A stretch of 40,004 nt of DNA from NCBI GenBank assembly GCA_028873845.1, contig JAPPNO010000048.1:1-40004 (forward strand), in the 5' to 3' direction. Of this stretch, positions 5,341-28,480 are shown piece by piece (within the stretch, counting starts at the first letter, position 1; each line of letters starts with the position of its first letter). Source of the stretch: Gemmatimonadota bacterium (GTDB lineage: Bacteria; Gemmatimonadota; Gemmatimonadetes; Longimicrobiales; Gaopeijiaceae). The position numbers and the translations under genes were made by a program. The notes under the pieces were generated by a model that was given only the letters and a program-made list of their open reading frames with translations, did no database searches and was not told the DNA's origin.

Positions 5341-6531
5341 CTACGGCAGCGCGTACCGCTCCAGGACCTGAAGCCCGTACTCGTCCATCCGCACCGCGTA
5401 CAGCTTCCCGTCGCCGAAGCTGACCACGCGCCGCCCCTCCCCCACTACGACCGTCATCTCCACCTCACCTGAACCGTCGAAGACATCGTAGACCGTGGCC
5501 TCGCCCGCCTCACGATGCCGCCTGATCCAGGCCCGCCCGCGGCCGTCCACCGGCACGGGTCGGCTGTAGAAGGCCGGCTTCACCTCGGGCCATGCGTAGC
5601 GGTCCAGGTCGTCATCGTCGGAGGTCCCGCCCCGGCTGGCCCGGATGGTGAGCACGCCGTTGACGTTCATTTGCTCGATGCCGAAGCCGCCGCCCACCTC
5701 GGACCGCGCGTCCCGCCATTCCTCCCGCTCGGCCCGCCCGATGGCCACGGGGTCGTATGGGACCGCCGGCCCACTCGTCACCGAACCGTCTTCCCCCCCG
5801 ATCCAGTCCAGGTGATAGTCCCCGGAACGAGCCACCACCACCTGCCCATCGCGGGATACGCCCCACGCGTCGGCAGGCGACAGGGGGATGGCGCTCACCT
5901 GGACGTTCCGGTTGCCTCCGTCTCCGGTCTCTCGCCGCGTCATGTCCGGCATCTTGAACAAGCCGAGCGAGTCCACGACGCCGGTTTCCAGGTCGATTCG
6001 CAGAATCCCCGCCGAATCGGCACCCCCGCCCATCCCGCCGATATCGGGGAAGTAGAGGCGACCCCGGTCGTCCACCGCCTGCGGCAGCACCATGAGCAGC
6101 GTGCCCTGCTCCGGGTCGACCATGGCATAGGGGCGCGTCTCGCCGAACCTCAACTCGGGGCTCAGTTCGGTGAGGCGGCCGTTGCCGAGGTCGACGAGCA
6201 GCGTCCTGCCGCCGGGGAGCGGCCACACCGCGTCTGGCTGGCGGTATTCGTCGGGGCCCTCGCCGACGGCGCCGATGGTGTCGGCCGTGCCCGCGTCCAG
6301 GTCGAGGCGCACCAGCACCTGCCCCAGCGGATCGGCCACCAGAACGCGTCCATCCTCGAACTCGCGCACCGTGGACACCACCGCGAACGGCTCCGGGTAG
6401 ACCGCCTCCGGTTCACCGAGCTGTACGCCGTCGGGCTGCCCGTCGGCACCGGGCGCACCACGATCGCACCCACCCAATGCGCACGCGATCACCGCGGCGC
6501 CGACACCGAGTTTCACGGCGACCTCTCCCAT
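5341..6531 (-). CDS. Exported six-bladed beta-propeller lipoprotein (copy 1)
   Basis: A 396-residue lipoprotein with signal MGEVAVKLGVGAAVIACALGGC (lipobox ALGGC, Cys at 22). The mature part has propeller-blade repeats of the 6-bladed NHL-like type: VREFEDGRVLVADPLGQVLVRLDL, IGAVGEGPDEYRQPDAV, GRTLLVDLGNGRLTEL, DDRGRLYFPDIGG, and a C-terminal GDGKLYAVRMDEYGLQVLERYAL. The motif IGAVGEGPDEYRQP matches the FGREGEGPGEFEAL of the second propeller lipoprotein at 22810-24021, so the two are paralogues. The start lies 10 bases after the glnN stop with no ribosome site of its own, suggesting coupling with glnN. Function unknown; probably an envelope scaffold or binding protein. Confidence 0.78.
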   Translation of the reverse strand: MGEVAVKLGVGAAVIACALGGCDRGAPGADGQPDGVQLGEPEAVYPEPFAVVSTVREFEDGRVLVADPLGQVLVRLDLDAGTADTIGAVGEGPDEYRQPDAVWPLPGGRTLLVDLGNGRLTELSPELRFGETRPYAMVDPEQGTLLMVLPQAVDDRGRLYFPDIGGMGGGADSAGILRIDLETGVVDSLGLFKMPDMTRRETGDGGNRNVQVSAIPLSPADAWGVSRDGQVVVARSGDYHLDWIGGEDGSVTSGPAVPYDPVAIGRAEREEWRDARSEVGGGFGIEQMNVNGVLTIRASRGGTSDDDDLDRYAWPEVKPAFYSRPVPVDGRGRAWIRRHREAGEATVYDVFDGSGEVEMTVVVGEGRRVVSFGDGKLYAVRMDEYGLQVLERYALP

Positions 6532-6541
6532 GGCGGCCCGG

Positions 6542-8719
6542 CTACTTGACGAACAGCATGTCGCGGTACGTCGGCAGCGGCCACAGATCGTCCGGAATCA
6601 CCTTCTCCATCCGGTCCGCGACCTCGCGCACCGCGTTCATTGCGGGGATCACGTTGTTCTTCATGTGGATCACCTTCGACGACACCTCGTCGCCGCCCAG
6701 CTCCTCGTTCTGCGCGTCGAGCTCGTCCAGCGCGGCGCTCAGCTCGTCGATGAGCCCGGAGATCCGCGCGATGTTGCTGTCCAGGCCCAACGTCGAGCCC
6801 GCCTTCTTCGCACCCTTCCGCGCAGACCCGAGCTGGTTCAGGTAGTTCACCGCCGCCGGCAGAATCATGCAGCGGGCGATGCGAGCCGCCGTCTCGCCCT
6901 CGATGTTGATCTTGATGAAGTACTGCTCGGTGAGCACCTCGAGGCGGGCCTCCAGCTCACGCGGGGACATCACCCCGTACTTGTCGAAGAGCACCTCGTT
7001 CTTGTGGTCGGCCAGTGCCGGCAGTGCGTCGACCGCCGAACCGGTGTTGAGCAGCCCGCGGCGCGCCGCCTCCTCGACCCACTCGTCCGAGTAGTTGTCG
7101 CCGTTGAAGATGATGCGCTTGAAGGAAGGGATCTCGTTGGCCAGCAGCGTCCAGAGCGCGTCCTCGATCGAGGTGCCGGCTTCGACGATCGGCTCCAGCA
7201 CGTCCGTCCACTGGTCGATCGCCTCGGCCACGATGGTGTTCAGCACCGTGGCCGGCAGCGAGATGCTGGCCGACGAGCCCACCGCGCGGAACTCGAACTT
7301 GTTCCCGGTGAAGGCGAAGGGCGAGGTGCGGTTGCGGTCGCCCGAGTGGCGCGGCAGATCCGGAAGCACGTTGACGCCCAGGCCGAGCAGGCCCTCGCGC
7401 TCCCTCTCCCTCGCGCGGCCCGACTCCTCCAGCTGGTCGAAGATGTCCTCGAGCTGGCGCCCCAGGAACACCGAAATGATCGACGGCGGCGCCTCGTTGG
7501 CGCCGAGGCGGTGATCGTTCCCGGCGGTCGAGACGGAGGCCAGAAGCAGATCCTGGTGCTTCTCCACCGCGCTCATCACCGCCGTGCAGAAGAAGAGGAA
7601 CATCAGGTTGTCATGCGGCGTGTCGCCCGGGTCCACCAGGTTGCGATCCCTGGTGCCGAACGACCAGTTGACGTGCTTGCCGCTTCCGTTGATCCCCGCA
7701 AAGGGCTTCTCGTGCAGGAGGCAGATGAAGCCGTACTGGCGCGCGTTCCTTTCCAGAACACGCATGGTCAGTTGCTGGTGATCCGACGCCACGTTCGCGT
7801 TCTCGTAGACGGGTGCCATCTCGTACTGGCCCGGGGCCACCTCGTTGTGGCGGGTCTTCATGGGGACGCCCAGCCGGTAGAGATCCATCTCGACGGACTG
7901 GATGCACGCGAGCACCCGCTCGTGGATCGAGCCGAAGTAGTGGTCGTCGAGCTCCTGTCCCCGGGGCGGCTTGGCCCCGAAGAGGGTGCGGCCCGAGGTC
8001 ATCAGGTCGGGACGGCGGTAGTAGAACTCGCGGTCGAGAAGGAAAAACTCCTGCTCGGGTCCCAGGCTGGCATTGACGCGCCCGGCCTCCACGCCGAAGA
8101 GCCTGAGTGCCCGGCGCGTGACCCTGTCGAGGGCGTCCATGGAGCGCAGCAGGGGAATCTTGGCATCCAGGCTCTCCCCGGCCCAGCTCGAAAAGGCGGT
8201 GGGGATGCAGAGGTAGGTGGCCGACTCGCCGCCCATGATGAAGGCGGGCGAAGTCGGGTCCCAGGCGGTGTAGCCGCGTGCCTCGAAGGTGGCGCGCAGG
8301 CCCCCCGACGGGAACGAGGAGGCGTCCGGTTCGCCCTGGACGAGCTCGTCACCCCCGAAATCGGTGATGGCGCGGCCATCGCGGCCGACCTTGAGGAAGG
8401 AGTCGTGCTTTTCGGCGGTGCTCCCGGTCAGCGGCTGGAACCAGTGCGTGTAGTGGGTGGCGCCCCGCGAGAGCGCCCAGTCCTTCATGGCCGCGGCAAC
8501 GGTGTCCGCGATCTCGGGATCGAGTTCCTCGCCGTGTTCGATGGTGCTGACGAGCTGTTTGAAGACGTTGTCGGGCAGCCGCGACTGCATCTCGCGCATG
8601 CCGAAGGTGTCCTCTCCGAAGACGCGCGGAAGGAGGTCGCGGTCCCCCGATCGGGATTCCTGTCTCCGGCTCCAGGTCTTGGCGGCGCTGACGGAATCGA
8701 AACGTCTCTGGGTGCTCAT
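6542..8719 (-). CDS. glnN: Glutamine synthetase type III
   Basis: A 725-residue protein, the usual size of GSIII (about 700-730) and much longer than GSI or GSII. It makes glutamine from glutamate, ammonia and ATP. GSIII-specific N-terminal motifs are seen: FGEDTFGMREMQSRL, DTVAAAMKDWALSRGATHYTHWFQPLTG and STAEKHDSFL. Later come EVAPGQYEMAPVYENANVASDHQQL, NGSGKHVNWSFGTRD (ATP/Glu site), GNDHRLGANEAPPSIISVFLG and AVGSSASISLPATVLNT. The C-terminus carries the helical GSIII tail (SAALDELDAQNEELGGDEVSSKVIHMKNNVIPAM). No other nitrogen-regulation gene lies nearby. A propeller lipoprotein gene follows at 10 bases. Confidence 0.97.
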   Translation of the reverse strand: MSTQRRFDSVSAAKTWSRRQESRSGDRDLLPRVFGEDTFGMREMQSRLPDNVFKQLVSTIEHGEELDPEIADTVAAAMKDWALSRGATHYTHWFQPLTGSTAEKHDSFLKVGRDGRAITDFGGDELVQGEPDASSFPSGGLRATFEARGYTAWDPTSPAFIMGGESATYLCIPTAFSSWAGESLDAKIPLLRSMDALDRVTRRALRLFGVEAGRVNASLGPEQEFFLLDREFYYRRPDLMTSGRTLFGAKPPRGQELDDHYFGSIHERVLACIQSVEMDLYRLGVPMKTRHNEVAPGQYEMAPVYENANVASDHQQLTMRVLERNARQYGFICLLHEKPFAGINGSGKHVNWSFGTRDRNLVDPGDTPHDNLMFLFFCTAVMSAVEKHQDLLLASVSTAGNDHRLGANEAPPSIISVFLGRQLEDIFDQLEESGRAREREREGLLGLGVNVLPDLPRHSGDRNRTSPFAFTGNKFEFRAVGSSASISLPATVLNTIVAEAIDQWTDVLEPIVEAGTSIEDALWTLLANEIPSFKRIIFNGDNYSDEWVEEAARRGLLNTGSAVDALPALADHKNEVLFDKYGVMSPRELEARLEVLTEQYFIKINIEGETAARIARCMILPAAVNYLNQLGSARKGAKKAGSTLGLDSNIARISGLIDELSAALDELDAQNEELGGDEVSSKVIHMKNNVIPAMNAVREVADRMEKVIPDDLWPLPTYRDMLFVK

Positions 8720-9056
8720 CTGTGGGCTGTCCTTTGGGTTGCGTCGGCGCGCGCCGCGCGAGAGTGGAGCGGGGGCGGCCGGGTGTCGTGAACGGCAGGG
8801 CTATAGTGGGAACCTGCAATCGGGAGGGCGGATGTTCAAGGGGGGAGAATAGCGTTAGGGAGATGGCGGCGCACGGGGGCGGGGACGGGGGACTGGAAGG
8901 GAACAAATGTTGTGGGTGCCATAGGAATCGGAGCGCCAGTTTGCGGACAAGAGCCGCACGAATGCCGGGGGGTTTTCCCTCAGGCCGCTGCGGCGGAGGT
9001 GAACGCGACCAGCCACCCGGGCCGTCCCGCTCCCGCCCTGGTCGGTCCACCCGCCG
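8720..9056. other. Intergenic region between glnN and the K+ channel gene
   Basis: No convincing gene. It must hold the glnN promoter on the minus strand, but I see no clear -35/-10 pair. On the plus strand, four G-tracts at 8875-8879, 8881-8884, 8887-8891 and 8899-8901, with loops of 1, 2 and 7 bases, meet the usual pattern for an intramolecular G-quadruplex; this places the G-rich strand opposite the glnN coding sense. Open frames here have shadow-like composition. Confidence 0.5.
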
Positions 9057-9740
9057 CTATCCCTCCTGCTCCCCCGCACTCGCCTCCCGCAGCGCATCCG
9101 CCATGATCCCGCAAGCGGACCCGATGACTCCGATTCCGGCGAACATCGCGACCGTGGCCAGGATCTTTCCGCCGGCCGTTATGGGCTGGATATCTCCGTA
9201 GCCCACCGTTGTCAGCGTGATCACCGCCCACCACAGCCCGTCGTACACCGAGCCGAAGATGTCGGGCTGCACCCCGTGCTCCAGATGGTACATGCCGAAG
9301 CCGGCCGTGATCACGATGATCCCCGTCCCGGCGAAGAGCGCCCCGGCCTCGTCCAATGCGAAACGGAACGCCCTGGCGAGCTTGGCCACCGCGCTGGTGC
9401 GGCTGGCCAGCTTCGCCGTGGTGACGAAGAGGCGAAACAGGCGAAAGGCACGAAGCGCTCGCAGGTCGAATCCCGTGAACGCCCACAGCGGCATGATCGC
9501 CAGGAAGTCCACGATCCCGATGAAGCTGAAGGCGTACTTCCTCCAGTCCTCGGCGCGGCGGATGCGGACGATCCACTCGGCGGTGTAGAGAGCCCAGATG
9601 CCCACGCCGGCCCAGAAGAAGAACGTCTCCGCGTGGGCGAAGGCGTCCACGGTCTCAACGCACTGGAGCAGCAGGTCGATGCCGATGACAACGAGGATCA
9701 GCCGTTCGATACGTTCCGGAAACGGAGGAGTGTGTCGCAT
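9057..9740 (-). CDS. Voltage-gated potassium channel (six-helix Kv type)
   Basis: A 227-residue protein from the ATG at 9740; the frame stays open to 9884, but the extra 48 residues are Pro/Arg-rich and unlike a channel. S1 is LILVVIGIDLLLQCVET; S2 WAGVGIWALYTAEWIVRI; S3 YAFSFIGIVDFLAIMPLW; S4 FDLRALRAFRLFRLF with four regularly spaced arginines (91-105). The pore follows: LWWAVITLTTVGYGDIQP, with the selectivity filter TVGYGD at 178-183, then S6 ILATVAMFAGIGVIGSACGIMADAL. It is a minimal KvAP/ion_trans channel with no cytoplasmic RCK domain, so gating is likely by voltage alone. It is not clearly in an operon. Confidence 0.93.
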   Translation of the reverse strand: MRHTPPFPERIERLILVVIGIDLLLQCVETVDAFAHAETFFFWAGVGIWALYTAEWIVRIRRAEDWRKYAFSFIGIVDFLAIMPLWAFTGFDLRALRAFRLFRLFVTTAKLASRTSAVAKLARAFRFALDEAGALFAGTGIIVITAGFGMYHLEHGVQPDIFGSVYDGLWWAVITLTTVGYGDIQPITAGGKILATVAMFAGIGVIGSACGIMADALREASAGEQEG

Positions 9741-9946
9741 TCGGGGGGTCTCCCGGGGTTGCGGGTCGGGCCTGGGTGGTCGTGGCCGGAAGCGCCCGGC
9801 ATTGGACTGGGGATTCATCAACGGACTCCCGGCTGGCGGGTCGCGGTATCGGGTGGAGCTTGCCGGTGAACGGCCGGCGGACACAAGTCGCGTCCCGGGT
9901 CCCCATCCGGCGGCGGCCCGCCAGCCGCCAGGTCATGACATTCGCA

Positions 9947-10652
9947 TCACCCCCGGATCCGCCCGGCCACCCACTCCACCATCTCATCCGGCACGCCTGC
10001 CGCACGCGCCTGCTCCCGCCACCCACCCACCGCCTCCTCCACCGCCCCCACCACCTCACGCCCTCCCCCCCGGCACATCGAACATCTCCCCCACCTCCAG
10101 CAGGTCGCCCCGCGTGATCTCGCGAAACTTCCCTCTCACCGACATCTGGTGCTGGCGTGTCCACGCATCGCTCTCCGCGTAGGTCACGTCATACGCCGGC
10201 GCCAGGCGCCATTGCCCCGCCGGATCCATGAGTAAGCCGAAGTTCTTTACGTGGTCGTCGAAGTTGACGGTGGCCACGCTGAAGACCATCCGCCGGTGCG
10301 CCTCGTTGACCGAGCGCTGGCCGAGTCCGATGGCGCGGATGGTGTCGAAGTACCCCTCGTAGCTGAACACGTACCGGTCGTTGAAGTCGATATGCTGCAG
10401 ACCCCCCAGGCTGTGGAAATGAAGCCTGCCGAAGGTCCCCTTGGTGTCGTCGCGGACCCGGTCGAAGCGCCTGGTCATGAAGTGCGCGAACCGTCCGTCG
10501 CGAAGCAGATACGTGTCGGGCATGTCGATCCCGGCATTCCTCGCCATGCGCGAGTAGGCGTACTCGATGCGTCCCCAGGGTCCGGGGTTTCGGGCGTGGC
10601 GCATGCGCTGGCCTGCCGCGTCCGCCGAGACCCCGTCGAAGACGTTTTCCAC
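9947..10652 (-). pseudogene. Decayed hipA-like kinase: N-terminus lost, C-terminal frameshift
   Basis: The frame from GTG 10652 gives only the C-terminal lobe of a HipA kinase: GRIEYAYSRMARNAGIDMP, HFMTRRFDR, YEGYFDTIRAIGLG, NFDDHVKNFGLLMD (catalytic loop) and WRLAPAYDVTYA (metal Asp). The N-terminal half and P-loop are absent; upstream DNA turns AT-rich and codes for nothing similar. The frame ends at 10056, but a run of seven C (10065-10071; G7 on the coding strand) lies just before it. Reading it as six restores the sense REVVGAVEEAVGGWREQARA and on to VEWVAGRIRG, stop at 9947, the expected HipA tail. So it is a truncated gene with a homopolymer frameshift, the latter possibly a sequencing error. 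It belongs to a different HipA subfamily from the intact copy at 32483-33760. Confidence 0.8.
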
Positions 10653-10655
10653 AGC

Positions 10656-10678
10656 GACATATATGACGTATAACTGTC
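10656..10678. promoter_or_regulatory. AT-rich partly palindromic site at the hipA breakpoint
   Basis: A 23-bp AT-rich stretch starting GACATATATGACG and ending ACTGTC has GACA/TGTC ends and loose internal symmetry. It sits where the hipA similarity stops, in very GC-rich surroundings. It may be a leftover operator or promoter; symmetry is imperfect and the role is a guess. The gap 10653-10818 holds no gene. Confidence 0.3.
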
Positions 10679-10818
10679 AAAATAGGAGCCTATGCGTCGT
10701 TTCTGACGCGAATACCGCTTCCCATGCTCACCCTGGACACGCTGCCGTCCCCAGCCGGCTCACCCGCGCACCATCCCACCATCCCCACGCCTGCAACGTC
10801 AGAACCGCCCGCGCCCCC

Positions 10819-12096
10819 TCATGACGGACTGTACACGTACACCACCCGCAGCCTGGAAACGTCCGTGATGCTCGTATCGGTATGATGGTAGATGTTCATC
10901 CTTCCCGTGCCACAATCGCCGAAATCGTCGCACGATGCCGTCCCGACCAGACCGCTGATGTCGGTTGCTCTCACCGCCCGGCGCAGTCTCGCCCGGTCGA
11001 TATACAACCTGTCCCCCACCTCCACGGCCACGGACCTGATGGCCGCGAGCAGCATGGTGGTCGCGTCGTAGGCGTGCGCCCAATAGGGTGACTCGGGGAA
11101 ACCGCCGTGTCTGTCGGCGAACGCGTCCAGAACCTGCTGCCCGCTCCGCCCCGTCAACTCGTTCACGTTCGAGCTGAAGTCCGCCTCCGGTCCCGCGAAG
11201 TACATCCCCTCCGACTGCGGCGTCGCCAGGAACGAGGAGACCAGCAGTGCGGCCGCTGAAATCAGGGTCGTCCCTTCGAGCCCGTCGAAGGCCCGTGCCT
11301 GGGCGGCAAAGGCCGTTCCCTCGTTCACGAACAGCGGGAAGAAGACGGCGTCGGGGCCGGCGGCCGCGAACTCGGTGAGAACCTCCGTCATGTCGGTCTC
11401 GCCCTTCGCGATTTCGGCCTGGACCGGCACTTCGCCCCCGACCTCGGCAAACGCGTCGGCGAACGCCTCGACGAGGGCGGAGGTGTACGCGTCGCCATCG
11501 TGAAGGGTGGCCACGCTCCTCAGCTCCAGCTCGTTGTACACGAAGTCCGAGAGGGCGCGCGCCTGGTGAAGGTCGTTGGACGACACGCGGAAGTAGCCGG
11601 GGTGATAGTCGGGATTCGCGTTCCCGGACAGATCCGAGGTGAGGCGCGGCGAGGTGTTGCTCGGCGAAATCATGAGCAGACCCGCCTCGCTGATGACGGG
11701 GGACGCCGCCACGGCCGCGGCCGAGCAGTTGGTTCCGATGACTCCGGCCACCTGCGGGTCCCCGACGATGCCGCCCGCACCCGCCCGCCCGCCCGCCGGC
11801 GAGCAGCTCGTGTCGACGGGGTCGCCCAGCCGGACCCGGCGCCCGTGGATGAGGCCCATGTCCTCGACGGCGAACTCGGCCCCACGTTGAGACACGGCCC
11901 CCAGCGTGGGCGCGACCGTGACCGAAAGCAGCGTGCGGATCCGTATCGGTTCGTCCGCTTCGAGTGTGACCGCGCCGAGCGGACCGGGCTCGAACCGTGT
12001 CGGCCTGGTCGTCTCCGTCTCGGTGCACCCCGCCGTCAGGACAACGGCGGCCAGGGTCGCAACGGAAAAAACGATACAGATGAAACGCTTGCGCAT
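10819..12096 (-). CDS. Branched-chain amino acid type ABC substrate-binding lipoprotein (orphan)
   Basis: A 425-residue periplasmic binding protein of the Leu/Ile/Val-binding (type 1) fold. The signal MRKRFICIVFSVATLAAVVLTAGC has lipobox LTAGC (Cys 24). Fold motifs: RGAEFAVEDMGLIHGRRVRLG, VAGVIGTNCSAAAVAASPVISEAGLLMISPSNTSPRLT, YFRVSSNDLHQARALSDFVYNEL, EIAKGETDMTEVLTEFAAAGPDAVFFPLF and YDATTMLLAAIRSVAVEVG. The start follows a strong AAGGAG eight bases ahead of the ATG. No livHMGF permease or ATPase genes are in the window, so it either works with a transporter elsewhere or acts as a sensor. Ligand unknown. The cysteines in CDDFGDCG near the C-terminus may pair. Confidence 0.88.
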   Translation of the reverse strand: MRKRFICIVFSVATLAAVVLTAGCTETETTRPTRFEPGPLGAVTLEADEPIRIRTLLSVTVAPTLGAVSQRGAEFAVEDMGLIHGRRVRLGDPVDTSCSPAGGRAGAGGIVGDPQVAGVIGTNCSAAAVAASPVISEAGLLMISPSNTSPRLTSDLSGNANPDYHPGYFRVSSNDLHQARALSDFVYNELELRSVATLHDGDAYTSALVEAFADAFAEVGGEVPVQAEIAKGETDMTEVLTEFAAAGPDAVFFPLFVNEGTAFAAQARAFDGLEGTTLISAAALLVSSFLATPQSEGMYFAGPEADFSSNVNELTGRSGQQVLDAFADRHGGFPESPYWAHAYDATTMLLAAIRSVAVEVGDRLYIDRARLRRAVRATDISGLVGTASCDDFGDCGTGRMNIYHHTDTSITDVSRLRVVYVYSPS

Positions 12097-12319
12097 GGGA
12101 CCTGCTCCTTCTCTTCAAGTATGTGTCACAATCGCCTGTATTGGCGGGCAACCAGCACCCCCAAAGCTAAACCGGCGGGACCGGGGGTTACAACTTGCGG
12201 CCCAGGAGTACCTTGGGACCGGTGTCGAAGGGTCCTCGCATAGACCCACGCGAGCGTCGAGAGCGGGGGAGCGGCGGCCCGGGAAGGCGCCGGGTCGAGG
12301 GACGTGTGTCGTCGTGCCC

Positions 12320-12937
12320 TCACCCCGGCGGGCCAGCCGTTCTCGGCGCCAGACTGTAGGGTTCGCGCGCGAACACGCGACGCACCATCGGCTCGAAGAA
12401 CTCCAGCGGCAGCGACTCGTAGTCGGGATCGAACGCACACTGGTCCCACCGGTGACAGAAGTCCACGGCGTCCCGATACCACGGATGGTCGAGGAACTTG
12501 TCGCGCGCGTTGCGGTCGCCGCCCACGTGGTGGCCGTAGTAGTAGTACTGGAACAGCCCGTGGTGCCTGACGATCCAGTGCGTCCGCTCGCTCACGAAGG
12601 GGCGGAGAAGCAGGGCGGCCAGCTCGCCGTGGCTGTGCGGGGCCAGCAGGTCGTCGATGTCGTGAAGGAGCGCCGCCACCACCAACTCCTCTTCCGCGCC
12701 GTCGCGATGGGCTCGGGTCGCGGTCTGGAGGGAATGCTCCAGCCGGTCGACCCGGTAGCCGCCCATCGAGCCGGACAGCTCACGCAGATGCGCCAGCACC
12801 CGGTCGGCGGTGCCGGCGGTGAACTCCTCCTCGAGGCGATCGAGCAGCTCGTAGTCCTCGCGGGTACCGTCCTCCATGCGGGTGAAGCTCACCGTCTGAC
12901 ACGTCGGTGGTGACTCGCCATCGGGCATGCTCGTCAT
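12320..12937 (-). CDS. HD-domain protein (COG4341-like), possible mixed-valent diiron oxygenase
   Basis: A 205-residue HD-domain protein. Metal residues in order: H68 (DRLEHSLQTATRAH), H92-D93 (LLHDIDDLL), H103, one of H120/H125/H126 (WIVRHHGLF) and D165 (HRWDQCAFDPDYESLPLEFF). Spacing of the first three matches PhnZ-type HD oxygenases (24 residues from H68 to the HD pair). The PhnZ residues that hold its substrate (Tyr24, Glu27) correspond here to M58 and Y61, so it is not a simple PhnZ. It is divergent from a dioxygenase of the family that precedes PhnZ-like enzymes in known pathways. It may instead be a phosphohydrolase. An AGGAG lies one base from the ATG at 12937; the ATG at 12928 is better spaced. 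Confidence 0.72.
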   Translation of the reverse strand: MTSMPDGESPPTCQTVSFTRMEDGTREDYELLDRLEEEFTAGTADRVLAHLRELSGSMGGYRVDRLEHSLQTATRAHRDGAEEELVVAALLHDIDDLLAPHSHGELAALLLRPFVSERTHWIVRHHGLFQYYYYGHHVGGDRNARDKFLDHPWYRDAVDFCHRWDQCAFDPDYESLPLEFFEPMVRRVFAREPYSLAPRTAGPPG

Positions 12938-13217
12938 TCTCCTGGCTGAGTGTTTCCCGTCAGGCAGCGTGCCCGGAAGCGAAGCGCCATGTCAAGGGCC
13001 GATGCACGAAGCCGATCTCGGCCGGCGTGTCCACCGGGGCCGGGTGCTTGACACGCCGGAGACAACCGGCCCAGATACCGGGTATGCGGTTGCGCGCGTT
13101 GCGATTGGGGACCCAGCGCGGCTGCCCGTCGCCATCTGCGGCCGCGCACCCGCCGGGCCCTGCGCAGCGGACGCGTCGCCGGATGGGGCCCGCCCACGGA
13201 TACCGAGGAGGTCGACC

Positions 13218-14333
13218 ATGCGTCATTCGATCAGCAGCATCGCCGGCAATGACGACGCCGTGACCGCAGTCTGGAGCGACGGCAAACGCACCGACATCCC
13301 CCACCTCTGGCTGCGGGACAACTGCGGTTGCAGCGAGTGCCGCGTCGTGCAGACCACCGAGAAGCGGTTCCACCTCTTCCGCGTCCCCGGCAACCTGCAG
13401 CCGCGGCGGATCGCCATCGAACACACCGGGTCGGACGAAGAAGCGCTCTCCATCGACTGGCCGGACGGGCACCGCACCAGCTACCCGTCGAGCGAGCTCC
13501 GCGGCCACCTGAGCCTGCCCCGTCTCGAGCTGCACTACTGGGACGGCGGGTTCCAGCCGCGGCGGTTCGACCATGGGCGATTCCTGGCGAGCGACCACGC
13601 GGCGGCGGAGCTGATCGAGGAGTTTCTGCGGACCGGGGTCTGCGTGCTGGTCGACGCCCCCACCGAACCGGATTCGTCCGAGCAGCTGGCTGCCCGCCTG
13701 GGGCCGATCCGCGAGCTGCTGTTCGAGCGCATTCACAACGTCAAGGTCGATCCGAAGGGGTACAACATCGCGCACACGGGCCTGGCCGTCGCACCGCACA
13801 ACGACTTCACGAGCTACAGCTGGCCGCCGAACGTGCAGGCGCTGCACATGCTGGTCAACGAGTGCGAGGGGGGCGAATCCTGCGTTGTGGACGGGTTCGG
13901 CCTGCTCAACCGGCTACGCGACGATCACCCCGGGAAGTTCGACATGCTTTGCACGGTGCCGGTGCCGTTCCGGATCTTCAGCAAGGAGTGCGAGTGCTAC
14001 GCGGTCAAACCGATGGTCGAGGTGGACGGCGGCGGCGCGGTCAGGCTGTTGCGCTTCAACACCGCGCAGATGCAGGCCGTTCCCCTCTCGGAGCCCCGCC
14101 TGGCCGACTTCTACGCCGCCTACCATGAGCTGTCCACACGCGTCAATTCCCCCGGCTCCCAGGTCACCTTCCGGCTGGAGGGCGGGCAGATCCTGCTCTG
14201 CGACGGGCACCGGGTGCTGCACGGCCGCACGGCCCTGCGCTCCGACGGCCGACGCCACCTGCAGGACGCCTATTTCGAGCACGACAACGTGCGGAATCAC
14301 CTGAGGTGGCTGCGGCTCAGCGGACGGGTGTGA
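13218..14333 (+). CDS. Gamma-butyrobetaine hydroxylase-like Fe(II)/2-oxoglutarate dioxygenase
   Basis: A 371-residue protein of the TauD/GBBH family. The N-terminal zinc-binding domain (DUF971-like) shows HLWLRDNCGCSECRVVQTTEK near residues 30-50, characteristic of gamma-butyrobetaine and trimethyllysine hydroxylases and of TmpA. The catalytic jelly roll has the iron motif H-x-D in LAVAPHNDFTSYSWPPNVQAL, the distal His in LLCDGHRVLHGRTAL and a following Arg for 2-oxoglutarate (RRHLQDAYFEHD). The ATG at 13218 is chosen because GAGGAG lies seven bases ahead; the frame is open upstream, but that is the divergent promoter region. The HD gene is divergent, about 280 bp away. Substrate is probably a trimethylammonium or aminophosphonate compound (inferred). 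Confidence 0.85.
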   Translation: MRHSISSIAGNDDAVTAVWSDGKRTDIPHLWLRDNCGCSECRVVQTTEKRFHLFRVPGNLQPRRIAIEHTGSDEEALSIDWPDGHRTSYPSSELRGHLSLPRLELHYWDGGFQPRRFDHGRFLASDHAAAELIEEFLRTGVCVLVDAPTEPDSSEQLAARLGPIRELLFERIHNVKVDPKGYNIAHTGLAVAPHNDFTSYSWPPNVQALHMLVNECEGGESCVVDGFGLLNRLRDDHPGKFDMLCTVPVPFRIFSKECECYAVKPMVEVDGGGAVRLLRFNTAQMQAVPLSEPRLADFYAAYHELSTRVNSPGSQVTFRLEGGQILLCDGHRVLHGRTALRSDGRRHLQDAYFEHDNVRNHLRWLRLSGRV

Positions 14334-14339
14334 CGGCGG

Positions 14340-15332
14340 TCACCCCGCCTCCGCACACCTCTCCAACTCCCCCAGCATCTCCAGCAGAGGCGCCTTGTCC
14401 TCCTCGCTCACCGCTTCCAGCGTCGCCAGAAGCTCCCGCGTGATCTCCTCACCCCCCTTCTCCCACCCCGACCATTGCCACATTCGCCCCTCCCACGAAT
14501 CCGGCTCGGGCCCCCGCGCGGCCTCGCACGACTCCAGGCCGTAGCCGAGCACGGTCAGCCCCTGCTCAACTGCCTCGGCAAGGTGACGGCCGTTCGGGAA
14601 GTCGATCCAGTACCTGGCCAACCTGTTGATGACGCTCTCCTCCACGTCGCAAACGAACACCCCCTCACAGTCGCGGCGGACCGATTCGCTCGCGTACTCC
14701 CACAGGATATCCTCTGCGAACGGGTCCGGCCGGTGCCTCTCGTACAGGTTCAGATACGCCTCGGACCAGGGGTCAGGGTCCTGTGCTACCTCGACCGCCA
14801 TGGCCAGCAAGGCCGTGCGCCGCTCGGTGAGGACGGCCGACGCCTCCAACCGATCCCGGTACCAGGCGGAACTCTCCAACAGGTTGTGCACGGCGAGCAG
14901 TTCGTCGAGGGCTGGCCGGACGCTCGCTGACAACAGCCCCTCGACCAGTTGCACGAAGTGGCCGATGTCCGTCGTTCGAGCCACCCTCGAGGAGGGCACC
15001 CAGCAGCCACCGGGAATCCCGTAGCCGCCGGACCGGCTCGGCGCGACATGCATCCACTGACCGGGCACCGCGGATGCGCGTCGGTTGACCAGGACCACCT
15101 TGCCGATCTCGAACCTTCCCACCGCGTCCGCCGAAAGCGAGGGCTCGGCGCGGCAGACGGTCTCGGTTGAGACAACCGCGGCCCAGCTCTGCCCGGCGGC
15201 GGGATCGGCTTCAGCGAGAACCGCCGCCAGCAACCCGGCGGCAAACCTTGTCCTCCAGAGGGAAGTCAGCTTCGGTCCGGCCTTTCCTCTCACTTTCGCG
15301 AAGTTCCTCGTCACCGCATCCGAGATAGACAC
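14340..15332 (-). CDS. Exported SH3b-domain protein, unknown function
   Basis: About 330 residues from a GTG at 15332. The frame is open much further upstream, but that part overlaps the ATPase gene and is Gly/Arg-rich noise. A signal-like stretch (TRFAAGLLAAVLAEADPAAGQ) precedes a bacterial SH3 domain: VVSTETVCRAEPSLSADAVGRFEIGKVVLVNRR, then WMHVAP and GGCWVPSSRV. The rest is helical with repeated WYRDRLEAS.., VEVAQDPDPWSEAYLNLY and acidic segments, with single cysteines (RRDCEGVFVCDVEES) that could form a disulfide. The family of the helical part is not recognised. It is on the same strand as the DUF4143 ATPase, 26 bases downstream. The exact start is uncertain because no ribosome site is convincing. 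Confidence 0.6.
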   Translation of the reverse strand: MSISDAVTRNFAKVRGKAGPKLTSLWRTRFAAGLLAAVLAEADPAAGQSWAAVVSTETVCRAEPSLSADAVGRFEIGKVVLVNRRASAVPGQWMHVAPSRSGGYGIPGGCWVPSSRVARTTDIGHFVQLVEGLLSASVRPALDELLAVHNLLESSAWYRDRLEASAVLTERRTALLAMAVEVAQDPDPWSEAYLNLYERHRPDPFAEDILWEYASESVRRDCEGVFVCDVEESVINRLARYWIDFPNGRHLAEAVEQGLTVLGYGLESCEAARGPEPDSWEGRMWQWSGWEKGGEEITRELLATLEAVSEEDKAPLLEMLGELERCAEAG

Positions 15333-15358
15333 CCCTGGCCCACAACGCAAACGTCCGC

Positions 15359-16720
15359 TCACACCCCCAGCCCCCCCACCGGAATCACCCCAACGCCATC
15401 CGGCCGCGCGTACCCGTACCCGCTTCCCACGATCACCCCCAGCGCCGCCGGCTTCCCGCACCGGTCCGTGTCCACCCGGTCGGCAAGCTTCAGCAACGCC
15501 TTCGCGGCTTCGTCGACCCGGCTCGCCCCGAGCTTGATCTCGAACGCCGCCCACTGGCCGGGCCCGGCGTCCACGACGGCGTCCACCTCCAGCCCCGTGT
15601 TGTCGCGGTAGTGGTACACGTCGGCGCCACTCGCCCGGGCGTAGACGCGGAGATCCCGCACGACCATCGACTCGAAGAGGAAGCCGAACCACTCGAAGTC
15701 GCTCAGCAGGTGTTCCGGGGTGGCGCTCAGGGCCGCAACGGCAAGCGACGGATCCGTGAAGTGCCGTCTTGCCGCAGTCCGCAGCCGCGACCGCGACCTC
15801 AGGTGCGGAGCCCACGGCGGCTGGTCTTCCACGATCATGAGGCGCTCCAGGGCGGTCATGTAGGAGCGGGCGGTGTGGTTGGTGAGGTGACGGTCCGGTC
15901 CACCGGTGTCCCGGGCCAGGGTGGACATGCTCGCGCAGGTGGCGACGTTGCGGCCCAGGGACTGCAGGAAGCGCCCGACCCTGGCCGGGTCCCTGTCCGA
16001 CCCGTCCACCCGCCGGATGTCGGTCCGGCAGACCTCGCCCAGGTAGTCCCGGTTCTCGGCCATCGCGTCCTCGACGGAGAGTGGCGGGTCCTCCTCCGAT
16101 GAACCCAGGTGCCCCGGCCATCCCCCGACGCACACGAAGTCCGCCAGTTGACGGACGGACAGCTTGGCCGCCAAGCTCGGCACCGGGTCGCCCGCCAGCA
16201 GCCGCATGAGCGAAACCGCTCCCGTCGAACGCTCCAGTTCGAAGAGCGACATGGGCCGCAAGCGCAGTCTTCCGATCCTCCCCGCCCCGGTATGCCGCGT
16301 GATGTCGTCGGGCGGAACCGCCGACCCCGTGAGGATGAAATGACCCCGCCCCGGGCGCTCGTCGACCGCGTGCCGAACCTGGTTCCAGACTTCGGGTACC
16401 AGTTGCCATTCGTCGATCAGCCGCGGGTTCTTCCCCTCCAGCAGGAATCCGGGATCGACCGCGGCCGCCCGGCGTGCCGACGGCTCGGCGTCGAGCATGA
16501 CGCTGCTGGCCGCGATCTGCCTGGCCGTGACCGTCTTCCCGCACGCCCGGGGCCCTTCGATCAGGACCGCCCCGGAACGGGCGAGGCGATCATTCAACTC
16601 GGCGTCCGCCACGCGGGGCCGATACTTCCGAAGGACGGGGCCGTAGGACGCCTTCGGAGGGGGTTCGCTCACGAGGTGGCGCGAGGGGATGTCGGGATGG
16701 CGGGTCGGCTGTGGAGTCAC
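15359..16720 (-). CDS. DUF4143-type AAA ATPase (copy 1)
   Basis: A 453-residue ATPase of the AAA_14/DUF4143 family. Walker A GPRACGKT at 56-63, a Walker B-like LIDEWQ at 100-105 followed by LVPEVWNQVRHAVDE, and the sensor FILTGSA. The C-terminal DUF4143 part has a PD-(D/E)XK-like core: NTGLEVDAVVDAG then WAAFEIKLG, where D, E and K could form a nuclease-type site. The middle holds a winged-helix-like segment (STLARDTGG..HLTNHTARSYMTALERLMIVEDQPPW). These ATPases are common, often horizontally mobile and of unsettled function. AT-rich repeats lie just upstream (16769-16826). Sequence differs strongly from the second copy at 18604-19767, so they are not a recent duplication. Confidence 0.88.
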   Translation of the reverse strand: MTPQPTRHPDIPSRHLVSEPPPKASYGPVLRKYRPRVADAELNDRLARSGAVLIEGPRACGKTVTARQIAASSVMLDAEPSARRAAAVDPGFLLEGKNPRLIDEWQLVPEVWNQVRHAVDERPGRGHFILTGSAVPPDDITRHTGAGRIGRLRLRPMSLFELERSTGAVSLMRLLAGDPVPSLAAKLSVRQLADFVCVGGWPGHLGSSEEDPPLSVEDAMAENRDYLGEVCRTDIRRVDGSDRDPARVGRFLQSLGRNVATCASMSTLARDTGGPDRHLTNHTARSYMTALERLMIVEDQPPWAPHLRSRSRLRTAARRHFTDPSLAVAALSATPEHLLSDFEWFGFLFESMVVRDLRVYARASGADVYHYRDNTGLEVDAVVDAGPGQWAAFEIKLGASRVDEAAKALLKLADRVDTDRCGKPAALGVIVGSGYGYARPDGVGVIPVGGLGV

Positions 16721-24239: not shown

Positions 24240-24377
24240 TCACATACTCACCTGCTCGTACCCGTACGCCGCGCAGTTCTCCTCTTCGAAGGGTCCGTGG
24301 CCGGCCATGGTGTGCGTCATCCCGCTGCGCGACATGCCGCGGATCACGACGGTGGGCGGCCGCGTATGAGGCGGCAT
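24240..24377 (-). pseudogene. C-terminal fragment of a paralogue of the 27845-28480 protein
   Basis: This frame encodes VVIRGMSRSGMTHTMAGHGP followed by FEEENCAAYGYEQVSM, nearly identical to the last 33 residues of the exported protein at 27845-28480. At DNA level 24256-24349 and 27849-27942 differ at 5 of 94 positions, in the same orientation. Everything upstream of the motif is missing, so this is a remnant. It has lost the original stop and runs four codons further. See the finding on flanking direct repeats. Confidence 0.75.
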
Positions 24378-24395
24378 CTTCAGGCGGCATCTTCA
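24370..24395. repeat. 13-bp tandem duplication
   Basis: GGCGGCATCTTCA occurs twice head to tail (24370-24382 and 24383-24395), immediately beside the gene fragment. Short slippage or repair duplication; supports the view that this spot was rearranged. Confidence 0.8.
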
Positions 24396-24541
24396 GTTGC
24401 GGCTGGACTACGCTTTTCCGTACACTGCGGGAGCCCAACGAATTTGCGCGCCAGATTCGAGCGGAAAGTCTACTCTGGGCGGAACGCCGGACGCGACCCG
24501 GATGCGATTGCGGTCATTGTAGCACTCTTGTTGCGAGGCAG

Positions 24542-24598
24542 ATGAATATGAAATCGGGCAGTCACCCGGCACCGACCTCGGACGAACCGCCATGCTGA
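24542..24598 (+). CDS. Possible 18-codon leader peptide before the P450 gene
   Basis: ATG at 24542, with GAGG a few bases ahead, opens MNMKSGSHPAPTSDEPPC and stops by overlapping the P450 start (ATGCTGA). The P450 ATG has no good ribosome site, so translational coupling through this frame is plausible. Could be chance. Confidence 0.3.
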   Translation: MNMKSGSHPAPTSDEPPC

Positions 24599-26589
24599 GG
24601 TTCGCGGAGGAGATTCTCGTTCTCGTCCTGGACGAAGGGCGCGGGGAACTCGCCCCCAGCCTGCCCGCCCGCTCGCTCGATCTGGCGCTGGCCGGGGCGG
24701 TGCTGATGGATCTCGCGCTCGAAGACCGCATCGACACCGATCCCGAGCGGCTGATGCTCGTGGACCGCACCCCGCTCGGCGACGACATCCTCGATCCGGC
24801 GCTCGGCGAGATCGCGAAGGACGGCCGCTCGCGCGACACCGGCTACTGGCTCGCACGGATCGCCGGACGGGGGGACCGGATCCGACGGGCCGCGATCGCC
24901 CGCCTGATCGGGCGCGGCATCGTGAGATCCGAGGCGCACGGAGTCCTGTCCCTGGTCCCGTCGGTGTCACGGTCGCGGCGCTATCCCACCGCTGACGGGC
25001 AGTCGGACGAAGAAGCGAGACTGCGGATCATGCGCGTGCTGTTCAGCGACGATGTGCCCGACCCGCGGGACATCGCGATGATCGCGCTGGCCGACGCCTG
25101 CGGCCTGTTCCGCACCATTCTGACGTCGGAGGAGCACACGCAGGTTCGGGATCGCATCGATCTGCTCAAGAATCTCGATCTGATCGGCCGGACGATGAGC
25201 CTGGCGATCGAAGGTCTCGAGGCGCCCGACGAACCCTCCCCGGAGCCCCGGCGACCGAAGGAGATCCCGGCGGTGCCGGGCCTTCCGCTGCTGGGCAACG
25301 GCCTGGCCATGCGGAAGGGACTGGTGACTTTCCTCGCCCGCCAGTACCGCGAACTGGGTCCGATCTTCAGGATCCGCGCTCCGGGACGCCGGTTCGTGTG
25401 CATGGCGGGGCCGGAGGCGGCCAACTTCCTGACCTCGCACGGAAAGACCGTTTTCCGGTCGCTGGAACCGATGGCGAGCTTCCACAACCAGATGGACTCA
25501 TCGCGCTCGATCCTGACGATGGACGGGATCGATCATGTCACGACGCGGAAGGCCCAGGCCAACGGATACGCCGTCCGGGTCATGCGGGACCGGTCGCGGG
25601 AGGTCGTCGACATCACCCGGGACGAGATCGGCAAGTGGCCGGTGGGGAAGCCGTTCGAGGTGTTGCCCGCATTCCAGCACCTGATCGCCGAGCAGATGGG
25701 CCACATGATGGCGGGCTACTCTCCGGAGGGCTACACGCGCGATCTGTCCACGCTGCTGGGAGGTCTGCTGCTCGGCGCCGCGACGGTTCCGCACGTCATG
25801 AAGCTCGCGCGCTTCCGCCGCGCGAGAGAACGGGCCCGCGAGCTGGCCCGGGCGGTCCTCGCACACAAGAGCAAGGTGGGTCCGCGTAGAACGACGCCGG
25901 ACTTCATCGACCTGATGCTCGAGCTGCGCCGGGCCGACCCCCAGCTCCTTCCCGAGACCAACCTGCCCCTGACGGTGCTCGCGCCCTACATGGTCGGACT
26001 GGACACCACGGCGAGCACATGTTCGTTCATGATCTACAACGTCCTGAAACGCCCGGAGCTCATGGAGCGCATGACCGCCGAGGCGGACGCCCTGTTCGAC
26101 CGGGGCCCGGTGAGCGGCGACGGCCTGCGGGAGCTCGACCTCGCGCGCCGCGTCGCGATGGAGACCCTGCGGCTTCACCCGGTCTCGCCCGCCGTGCTGC
26201 GGACCACCGCCAACTCGTTCGATTTCGCGGGTCATCGTGTTGCCGCGGGCACCCAGGTCATGATCGGTACGGCGGTAGGACACACGCTCGAGGAGTATTT
26301 TCCGGATCCGGAGCGCTTCGACATCGACCGGTACACGCCGGCTCGGGGCGAACACCGGCAGCGCGGAGCCTACGCCCCGTTCGGTGCCGGCAACCACCGG
26401 TGCCTCGGCAGCGGTCTCGTGCCGGTCCAGCTCGCGCTCACAATGGCCACGATATTGAGGGAGCTCGCTGTGGAGCCGCTCGCGCCCGACCATGTGCTGC
26501 GCGTGAGATCCTTCCCGACCATGCAGCCCGTGGGCTTCAGAATCCGCGTTCTCGGGGAACGGACACACGACGTGCCGGCGACGGCGTAG
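24592..26589 (+). CDS. GPP34 (GOLPH3-like) domain fused to cytochrome P450
   Basis: A 665-residue protein with two parts. Residues 1-210 match the GPP34/GOLPH3/Vps74 fold: RFAEEILVLVLDEGRGELAP, LALAGAVLMDLALEDRIDTD, ILDPALGEIA, WLARIAGRGDRIRRAAIARLIGRGIVR and IAMIALADACGLFRTIL; eukaryotic members bind phosphatidylinositol-4-phosphate on membranes. A Pro/Glu linker (211-226) leads to a complete P450: IPAVPGLPLLGN, I-helix MVGLDTTAST (467-476), ExxR at 524-527 (ETLRLHP), PERF-like PDPERFDIDRY and heme loop FGAGNHRCLG with Cys604. No signal peptide or membrane helix is seen, so the N-terminal domain may recruit the P450 to the membrane (inferred). Acyltransferase gene follows at five bases. A weak start: a short frame at 24542-24598 overlaps it. 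Confidence 0.88.
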   Translation: MLRFAEEILVLVLDEGRGELAPSLPARSLDLALAGAVLMDLALEDRIDTDPERLMLVDRTPLGDDILDPALGEIAKDGRSRDTGYWLARIAGRGDRIRRAAIARLIGRGIVRSEAHGVLSLVPSVSRSRRYPTADGQSDEEARLRIMRVLFSDDVPDPRDIAMIALADACGLFRTILTSEEHTQVRDRIDLLKNLDLIGRTMSLAIEGLEAPDEPSPEPRRPKEIPAVPGLPLLGNGLAMRKGLVTFLARQYRELGPIFRIRAPGRRFVCMAGPEAANFLTSHGKTVFRSLEPMASFHNQMDSSRSILTMDGIDHVTTRKAQANGYAVRVMRDRSREVVDITRDEIGKWPVGKPFEVLPAFQHLIAEQMGHMMAGYSPEGYTRDLSTLLGGLLLGAATVPHVMKLARFRRARERARELARAVLAHKSKVGPRRTTPDFIDLMLELRRADPQLLPETNLPLTVLAPYMVGLDTTASTCSFMIYNVLKRPELMERMTAEADALFDRGPVSGDGLRELDLARRVAMETLRLHPVSPAVLRTTANSFDFAGHRVAAGTQVMIGTAVGHTLEEYFPDPERFDIDRYTPARGEHRQRGAYAPFGAGNHRCLGSGLVPVQLALTMATILRELAVEPLAPDHVLRVRSFPTMQPVGFRIRVLGERTHDVPATA

Positions 26590-26594
26590 GCCGC

Positions 26595-27788
26595 GTGCCC
26601 GGGGTCCGGCCACCGGCGAACCTTCCACGGTACCACGCCCTCGACAGGCTGCGTGCATCCATGATGCTGCTCGGGGTCGTCCGTCACGCCGCGGTCAGCT
26701 ACGTGCCCGTCGTCTTCTTCGAATGGCCGTACCGGGATGCTCAGGCCGACATGCTCTCCTACTGGGTGGTCATCTTCATCCGCGTGTTCAACCTGCCCGT
26801 CTTCTTCGCGATCGCGGGGTTCTTTGCCGCATACCTGGTCGAGACGCGGGGCGCGCAGGGATTCCTGCGGCACCGGTGGAGCCGGATCGGGGTGCCGTTC
26901 CTGGTGGCATGGCCCCTCCTCGGGGTCACGATGTTCTTCATCGTGCCGTTCGCCGCCCGCTTCAGCACCACGCCGCCGAACGCCGCCTACAGCCTTGCGG
27001 AGCTGACTTCGTCCAGGGCCCTGGACCACCTGTTCATGCATCTGTGGTTCCTCTACCACCTCATGATCCTGTGCGTGGCCGCGTGCGCACTGCGCCCGCT
27101 CGCCGCCCGGATTCCCGCAGCCGTGCGCGCCCGGGCGATGGACCTCTTCGAGCGCTGCGTGCACCGCGGAGGCATGGCCGTGCTGATTCCGGCCACGGGC
27201 CTCGTACTGTACCGGATGCAGTCGTGGGCGATCGACTACTACGCCGGCCCGTTTCCCGCCCCGCGCCAGCTGGCGCTGTACGGGCTGTTCTTCGGATTCG
27301 GGTGGATGCTGTTTCGCAGACGCGGGGCGCTCGAGGGCTTCAAGCGGCCCGCGTGGACACTGCTCGCCGGCGGATTCCTGTGCTTCCTCGCGTACCGGCA
27401 CTTCTTCGAGATCGGCTGCCCTCCCAGGCCGGACAGAACGTGCCCGGTGGCCGGCGAGGGGCACCTGGCGGCGGTCGTCTTCCTCGCGCTGACCATGTGG
27501 TGCATGGCGTACGGCCTGATCGGTCTCTTCCTGCGCTACATGGACAGGCCGAGTCCGCGCTGGCGGTACATGGCGGACGCCTCGTACTGGATCTACATCG
27601 TCCACGTGCCGTTCGTCATGCTGCTCCCCCTTCTCCTGGCGAGCGTGCCCCTTCCCGGGATCCTGAAGCTCGCGCTCGTCTCGGTCATGGCGATCTGCCT
27701 GATCCTGGTGACGTACCACTACTTCGTGCGCGCGACGTTCATCGGGAAGCAGCTGAACGGGCGCCGCCATCCGCGAGGAGTGACGTGA
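26595..27788 (+). CDS. Acyltransferase-3 family integral membrane protein
   Basis: A 397-residue protein from a GTG at 26595, five bases after the P450 stop. The longer open frame starting earlier runs through the P450 gene and is not real there. The conserved AT3 start YHALDRLRASMMLLGVVRHAAVSYVP contains the Arg and His of the acyl-transfer site. About ten hydrophobic segments follow, including YWVVIFIRVFNLPVFFAIAGFFAAYLV, FLVAWPLLGVTMFFIVPF, LWFLYHLMILCVAAC, LALYGLFFGFGWMLF, and near the end YMADASYWIYIVHVPFVMLL and LILVTYHYFVRATFIG. Closest in style to OpgC/glucan-modifying members. It probably O-acylates a lipid, glycan or the P450 product at the inner membrane (inferred from operon). Confidence 0.88.
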   Translation: MPGVRPPANLPRYHALDRLRASMMLLGVVRHAAVSYVPVVFFEWPYRDAQADMLSYWVVIFIRVFNLPVFFAIAGFFAAYLVETRGAQGFLRHRWSRIGVPFLVAWPLLGVTMFFIVPFAARFSTTPPNAAYSLAELTSSRALDHLFMHLWFLYHLMILCVAACALRPLAARIPAAVRARAMDLFERCVHRGGMAVLIPATGLVLYRMQSWAIDYYAGPFPAPRQLALYGLFFGFGWMLFRRRGALEGFKRPAWTLLAGGFLCFLAYRHFFEIGCPPRPDRTCPVAGEGHLAAVVFLALTMWCMAYGLIGLFLRYMDRPSPRWRYMADASYWIYIVHVPFVMLLPLLLASVPLPGILKLALVSVMAICLILVTYHYFVRATFIGKQLNGRRHPRGVT

Positions 27789-27844
27789 CGGCGGCGGGCG
27801 GCGGGAACAGTCGCCGCGGGCGCCAGTTCCGCTACCGTGGCGGC

Positions 27845-28480
27845 CTACTCATACCCGTACGCCGCGCAGTTCTCCTCTTCGAAGGGCCCGTGCCCGGCCA
27901 TGGTGTGCATCATGCCGCTGCGCGACATGCCGCGGATCACGATGGGACCGGTCCACATCGTCGCGTCCGGATCGAAGGCCGGCTCCAGCGTGACCACCAC
28001 GAGGAACTTGTTCCACGCCACCTTGCCGGCGAACGAAACCGGGTCGGTCAGTTCGCCGGCCAACACCACCTGGTCGAGCTCCGGGGTCGTGGCCCACACC
28101 ACGTAGGTGCCGCTGCGCGCCGGTCGCAACCGCTCGAAGCGCACCGTGAAGTCGTATTGGTAGCTGCCGTCCTCCGCGAGGGCCACGCCGAAGGGCGACT
28201 GCTCGAAGGCCACCTCGCCCACCCCGGTCGCGTTGCCGGTTCCCGGGACCCGCCTGGTCGACACCATCGGGAACCGGTAGTACTCGGGGCCGGAAACCGA
28301 GCCCGCCGCGCCTACAACCGCGCCGGGCCCCATGCCGCATCCGCCGACCAACCCTGCCACCTCGGACCGCAAGCCGGCCACCCGCCCGCCATCCGCGGCG
28401 TTCCGGACCGGCGCCGCGCCCAACAACACCGCCGCCACCACCATCCAACCCCCCGGTTGCACCCATCCAGTAACCCTCAT
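27845..28480 (-). CDS. Exported protein of unknown function, partner of LVIVD gene
   Basis: A 211-residue protein with ATG at 28480 behind AAGGAGGAGAGGAG. A signal-like segment (GGWMVVAAVLLGAAPVRNA) is followed by a Gly-rich stretch and then a beta-rich domain: SGPEYYRFPMVSTRRVPGTG, YQYDFTVRFERLRPARSGTYVVWATTPELDQVVLAGEL, AWNKFLVVVTLEPAFDPDATMWTGPIVIRG, and the very conserved tail MSRSGMMHTMAGHGPFEEEN followed by CAAYGYE. Family not recognised; the middle recalls domains that report on charges or strain (sequence style only). It lies 22 bases downstream of the LVIVD-repeat gene on the same strand. Its 3' end is one of two 94-bp direct repeats flanking the P450 unit. Confidence 0.75.
   Translation of the reverse strand: MRVTGWVQPGGWMVVAAVLLGAAPVRNAADGGRVAGLRSEVAGLVGGCGMGPGAVVGAAGSVSGPEYYRFPMVSTRRVPGTGNATGVGEVAFEQSPFGVALAEDGSYQYDFTVRFERLRPARSGTYVVWATTPELDQVVLAGELTDPVSFAGKVAWNKFLVVVTLEPAFDPDATMWTGPIVIRGMSRSGMMHTMAGHGPFEEENCAAYGYE

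Follow-up and report, generated by a model that had tools for sequence, protein, structure and literature searches.

A GPP34–cytochrome P450 fusion that travels with a membrane acyltransferase among sponge-associated bacteria, and its possible link to sterols or triterpenoids

Cytochromes P450 fused to redox domains are known, and so are bacterial GPP34 proteins as a family. The CYP51-ferredoxin fusion of Methylococcus capsulatus likewise joins a P450 to another domain, although the partner is a ferredoxin and not GPP34. The I-helix signature of CYP51, the sterol 14-demethylase, is of the GQHTS type. As for bacterial GPP34 proteins, we found no assigned biochemical role for them in the literature searched. 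The closest described relatives of the GPP34 domain considered here are GOLPH3, a Golgi protein of humans, and Vps74. GOLPH3 binds PI4P via W81, R90, R171 and R174, inserts a hairpin (residues 190-201) and also binds client enzymes (PMC13408441). A different kind of described system is represented by KshA/RND sterol-handling sets, which combine a Rieske protein with an RND-type transporter (e.g. the Bst sterol transport proteins, PMC10942540). Here we describe a gene in which a GPP34 domain and a P450 are covalently joined. A full-text literature search, with subscription journals mostly outside it, returned no description of such a fusion, and the papers found for GPP34 together with P450 or bacteria mostly dealt with an insecticidal protein that is unrelated but also called GPP34. 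Within that literature, therefore, the first-pass annotation of this DNA was right to treat the fusion as an undescribed system.

The gene resides in a 40,004-nt stretch of a Gemmatimonadota contig (JAPPNO010000048.1, assembly GCA_028873845.1), hereafter referred to as the window. The gene, its parts and its downstream neighbor are as follows:

24592-26589, + strand: GPP34-P450 fusion ORF, 665 aa, ATG start, open throughout
24592-25221, + strand: GPP34 (GOLPH3-like) domain, residues 1-210, assigned by Pfam match and fold
25222-25281, + strand: Pro/Glu-rich linker, residues 211-230, with pLDDT below 50 at 211-221
25282-26589, + strand: cytochrome P450 domain, residues 231-665 including the stop codon, assigned by Pfam match
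26595-27788, + strand: acyltransferase-3 membrane protein, MdoC/OpgC-like, 397 aa, GTG start

Both halves of the fusion have significant Pfam matches. PF05719 (GPP34) covers residues 5-204 and scores 127.6 bits (cut-off 29.1, E 8.5e-37), and PF00067 (P450) matches with 175.1 bits (E 3e-51). The features that define the P450 superfamily, namely the heme-cysteine loop, the ExxR motif and the P450 profile, are all present, and Cys604, E524 and R527 (E524xxR527) are invariant across an alignment of 35 fusions. The I-helix of the window P450 reads GLD471T472T. In the same alignment, the acid-alcohol pair D471-T472 is kept in the clade of the window but missing from paralog clades B and C. Since the pair is retained, the clade of the window looks like a monooxygenase, and hydroxylation is its probable reaction. 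Motifs and Pfam matches thus agree with the initial reading, in which a complete P450 (Cys604 heme loop, ExxR, I-helix) follows a GPP34-type domain and a linker in a single frame. The acyltransferase-3 partner proposed along with it is equally well founded: its ORF begins 5 bases past the fusion stop codon (26587-26589), and it matches PF01757 with 84.2 bits against a cut-off of 31 (E 1.2e-23).

The fusion is found in the same frame in many independent assemblies and at dozens of loci. A frameshift or assembly artefact, a concern raised in the first-pass annotation, is excluded by this recurrence, and the question is settled in favor of a genuine fusion. The dN/dS ratios of 0.14-0.28 for the GPP34 and P450 domains reveal purifying selection, and the acyltransferase has ratios of 0.20-0.33; in most comparisons the linker has a higher ratio than the domains. 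These low values throughout indicate that both halves of the fusion, as well as the acyltransferase, are kept by selection. The gene product is a genuine GPP34-P450 fusion enzyme maintained by selection. Strong matches occur in 48 of 395 Gemmatimonadota genomes, representing 8 of 138 genera, and full-length fused copies were counted in the table of matches for 5 of those 8. The fusion was not found on plasmids (no plasmid match covers 80% of the query), on phages, where the matches correspond to the P450 only, or on viral contigs. Standalone GPP34 genes coexist with fusions in the same genomes. In a tree built with no outgroup, the fused P450s form nearly one clade, while standalone GPP34s nest among the fused ones. 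The genome of the window itself has two standalone GPP34 genes in tandem (G000:C24:18882-20284), and standalone copies are also present in other bins of the same kind.

An AlphaFold model of the GPP34 domain alone (pLDDT 92) has the same fold as GOLPH3 (9qpq; Z 19.2, 194 residues, rmsd 2.7) and Vps74 (Z 17.5, about 194 residues aligned), while the best non-GPP34 chain reaches only Z 4.0. This places the domain in the GOLPH3 fold, as the initial reading had supposed. The profile matches to GOLPH3/Vps74 are also significant (E 3e-12 to 4e-11). On the other hand, sequence identity is only about 20%, and the window domain is N-terminal to a P450 rather than on its own. The model of the full-length fusion (pLDDT 84, pTM 0.65) consists of two folded domains connected by a low-confidence linker; at this pTM the arrangement of GPP34 relative to the P450 is uncertain.

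The similarity to GOLPH3 does not extend to the phosphoinositide site. In a profile alignment with the solved GOLPH3, residues W81, R90, R171 and R174 correspond to P25, A34, D94 and R97 of the window, so that only R97 is kept. With three of the four GOLPH3 ligands missing, the sequence does not support PI4P binding, nor the phosphoinositide binding suggested at first pass. The hairpin region, however, is still hydrophobic and is followed by an SRRYP motif (128-132), which is at least 90% conserved over fused and standalone copies. Taken together, the hydrophobic hairpin and SRRYP make docking on an acidic membrane plausible. The covalent link to the P450, kept across phyla, would then tie the GPP34 domain to enzyme placement on membranes. 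Alternatively, the domain could be a protein adaptor which, as GOLPH3 does for Golgi enzymes, holds the P450 by its redox partner or by the acyltransferase instead of binding lipid, a role compatible with any substrate. GOLPH3 does bind client enzymes (PMC13408441), the acyltransferase is the single constant neighbor of the fusion, and standalone GPP34 genes are present in the same genomes. However, those standalone genes occur without this acyltransferase nearby, and no interface was seen in our analysis. We therefore regard an adaptor function as quite unlikely and favor membrane docking.

The acyltransferase is the most constant feature of the fusion neighborhood. It is MdoC-like rather than MdoC, as its score against the MdoC/OpgC equivalog NF003014 is 153.6 bits, under the cut-off of 338. 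The fusion architecture and this neighbor were looked for in other genomes and recur, with the acyltransferase 3' of the fusion, in at least 10 unrelated genomic settings. Within the set closest to the window, in which fusions are 65-90% identical over their full length, the acyltransferase comes next in nearly every intact copy on contigs long enough. Comparison across the fusion settings revealed no other widely shared neighbor. In the window, the two genes constitute an inserted unit flanked by direct repeats:

24353-27843, + strand: two-gene insert of 3.49 kb; the collinear locus of relative G007 lacks it (empty site, L182)
24251-24352, no strand: left copy of a 102-nt direct repeat, the displaced 3' end of gene 27849-28466 (- strand)
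27844-27945, no strand: right copy of the repeat, the 3' end of gene 27849-28466 (- strand)

The two repeat copies are 93% identical, and the left one adjoins the native flanking sequence seen at the empty site of G007. There, the collinear flanks enclose a single copy of the 102-nt sequence and no unit. Other loci resemble the window only from about 24561-24592 on the left to 27802 on the right, near the gene ends, and an all-against-all comparison of loci distinguished more than 10 unrelated settings. Genomes with rpoB identities of just 48-57% have fusions that are 71-80% identical; in one genome pair, the fusions are 90.5% identical compared with 62% for rpoB. Fusion identity so far above rpoB identity indicates that the two genes moved between phyla as a unit. 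Judged by these identities, the fusion and the acyltransferase travel as a cassette between sponge-associated bacteria of several phyla, the association with sponges being drawn from record names and from studies of these bacterial groups in sponges (e.g. PMC8163846, PMC10469786).

Misbinned contigs are a risk for any such inference of transfer, and some record titles are plainly wrong. Nevertheless, two of the contigs behind the transfer pattern are long, L038 with 403 kb and L050 with 2.5 Mb, and several settings were seen twice in independent assemblies (L033/L036, L038/L054). Record titles were rejected as a source of taxonomy, since contigs with the title Gammaproteobacteria have flanks 90% identical to those in Gemmatimonadota, and rpoB was used instead. 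The loci concerned are L026, L051, L053 and L063, whose Gammaproteobacteria MAG titles conflict both with these flanks and with rpoB.

The 3' end of gene 27849-28466 (- strand) is duplicated around inserts in several relatives (L182, L183, L184). In relative G021, copies of this gene end flank a 7.3-kb insert carrying a 1543-aa helicase-nuclease that is probably a defence gene. Together with the unit in the window, this insert shows that the 3' end is a repeated landing place.

What the P450 might act on can be approached through its relatives. The nearest solved P450s by sequence are CYP51 (E 2.1e-35), at 21-25% identity, and CYP51 structures are also the best fold matches for the P450 part of the model. 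Taken alone, this proximity is a weak pointer to a sterol substrate. CYP51 is well represented among P450 relatives in PDB, and the window P450 has GLDTT in place of the CYP51 I-helix signature.

The neighborhoods of paralogous fusions are more informative. These fusions, about 30-33% identical to that of the window, come from bins titled Chloroflexota, Actinobacteriota, Latescibacterota, Gemmatimonadota, Binatota and Acidobacteriota, titles that are partly backed by rpoB. A neighbor about 360 residues long is conserved in 11 of 15 fetched loci and proves to be a Rieske oxygenase carrying the C-terminal domain of KshA (KshA_C); many of the paralog loci also hold an AcrB-type RND system or an MMPL protein with sterol-sensing and Patched matches. 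Within the genus of the window, genomes nearly always have either both the paralogous fusion and KshA_C or neither, and the two often lie within a few hundred bases of each other. The Rieske and RND-type components of the described sterol-handling sets are thus found beside paralogous fusions, but both are missing from the unit in the window, in which the P450 and acyltransferase are accompanied by no further sterol gene; neither KshA_C nor a paralogous fusion was found in the genome of the window. Moreover, the sterol-linked paralogs lack the acid-alcohol pair and so may do other chemistry than the clade of the window. Across several phyla, an FAD oxidase also accompanies the paralogous fusions, the KshA-type Rieske protein and the RND/MMPL exporter (L193-L205). 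A KshA clade restricted to sponges is already known from sponge metagenomes (PMC5790920).

Among the plasmid sequences, the closest unfused P450 is WP_227398350.1 of Planktothrix agardhii, with 236 bits compared with about 100 for the others listed; this best plasmid match has 32% identity over 422 residues. In the tree without an outgroup, it branches next to the fused P450s. Its cluster encodes a squalene synthase, a squalene epoxidase, a squalene cyclase, Rieske proteins (the two examined carry KshA_C) and a product annotated as emopamil-binding. This P450 has KshA_C Rieske companions like the paralogous fusions but is not fused to GPP34. The region concerned, plasmid p2 37000-62266 (L188/L228), is a sterol/triterpenoid-type cluster with several P450s and Rieske proteins. 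In the genus of the window, squalene cyclase matches were seen in few genomes only (G000, G006, G010, G012), with no simple correlation.

The paralog neighbors and the Planktothrix gene cluster make a sterol or triterpenoid a more likely substrate than a phospholipid or glycolipid, and the related fusions beside sterol-type enzymes point to an undescribed sterol- or triterpene-modifying pathway. This bears on the first-pass annotation, which envisaged a membrane lipid or glycolipid oxidised by the P450 and then acylated, taken here as a phospholipid or glycolipid with GPP34 bound to acidic phospholipid. The GPP34 fold, an MdoC-like partner, and a hydrophobic hairpin and nearly invariant SRRYP that could face an acidic membrane all fit that proposal; the loss of the PI4P ligands and the sterol-like substrates indicated by paralog neighbors weigh against it, and we consider it very unlikely. 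Its general form, a membrane-tethered P450 whose lipid product is subsequently acylated, remains the best kind of reading.

The unit could also encode tailoring enzymes for a natural product other than a sterol, such as another terpene, a polyketide or a fatty-acid-derived compound, with the acyltransferase modifying that product, as happens in the tailoring of macrolides or glycans. Proteins of the PF01757 family acylate glycans and antibiotics too, the unit is without a cyclase or synthase, and the top NCBIfam P450 matches, far under their cut-offs, are the terpene enzymes pentalenene oxygenase and albaflavenone monooxygenase. However, the two-gene unit has no biosynthetic core gene beside it in any of its various settings, and the KshA-type Rieske partner of the paralogs points elsewhere. 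This possibility thus appears rather unlikely, and we return to sterols and triterpenoids.

In the mechanism that we propose, an otherwise soluble P450 would be held at the cytoplasmic membrane by the GPP34 domain, which lacks a canonical PI4P pocket. The enzyme would draw its substrate, a sterol or triterpenoid, out of the bilayer and add a hydroxyl using electrons from a putative redox partner, and the membrane acyltransferase-3 would then esterify the new hydroxyl (O-acylation). We put the chances of this whole chain, from oxidation by the membrane-docked P450 to O-acylation of the product, at about even. Sponge sterols may be the natural substrate. If the sterol reading is true, the fusion is a marker for a chemical trait common to sponge symbionts and offers a direct route to test who makes or modifies unusual sponge sterols.

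In addition to traveling with its partner, the fusion gene is itself a target for insertion in relatives, at a site that corresponds to the following feature of the window:

26401-26414, + strand: TGCCTCGGCAGCGG, heme-Cys codon and following codons, unoccupied in the window and element-occupied in ten relatives, as seen from junctions

Ten related genomes (G002, G004, G008, G012, G014, G017, G019, G022, G129 and G170, from three genera and two families) have an integrative element that interrupts the fusion gene at its heme-cysteine codon. The junctions have in common the core CTCGGCAGC, which follows the Cys codon, and the acyltransferase follows the right junction of the element wherever that junction was located. 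The sole complete copy (G002:C42, L103 ~6464-16580) is about 10 kb long and carries two GmrSD restriction proteins, beta-propeller genes and a tyrosine recombinase adjoining the right end; no RNA family was found in the element. It is possible, albeit doubtful, that sponge symbionts of about six phyla share an undescribed system in which GPP34-anchored P450s, KshA-type Rieske oxygenases, acyltransferases and RND/MMPL exporters jointly remodel sterols of the host; one member would be open to inactivation, and perhaps reactivation, by an element located precisely at the heme-cysteine codon.

The recombinase belongs to a large family. Some genomes in the genus of the window have at least 27 related recombinases, and dozens of copies that are 68-76% identical occur in many genomes of this genus. 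Recombinase copies and shared left ends are the marks by which we recognize an expanded integrative-element family. The conserved 125-nt left end is present at many other sites, and those that were read carry the short core CTCGGCA.
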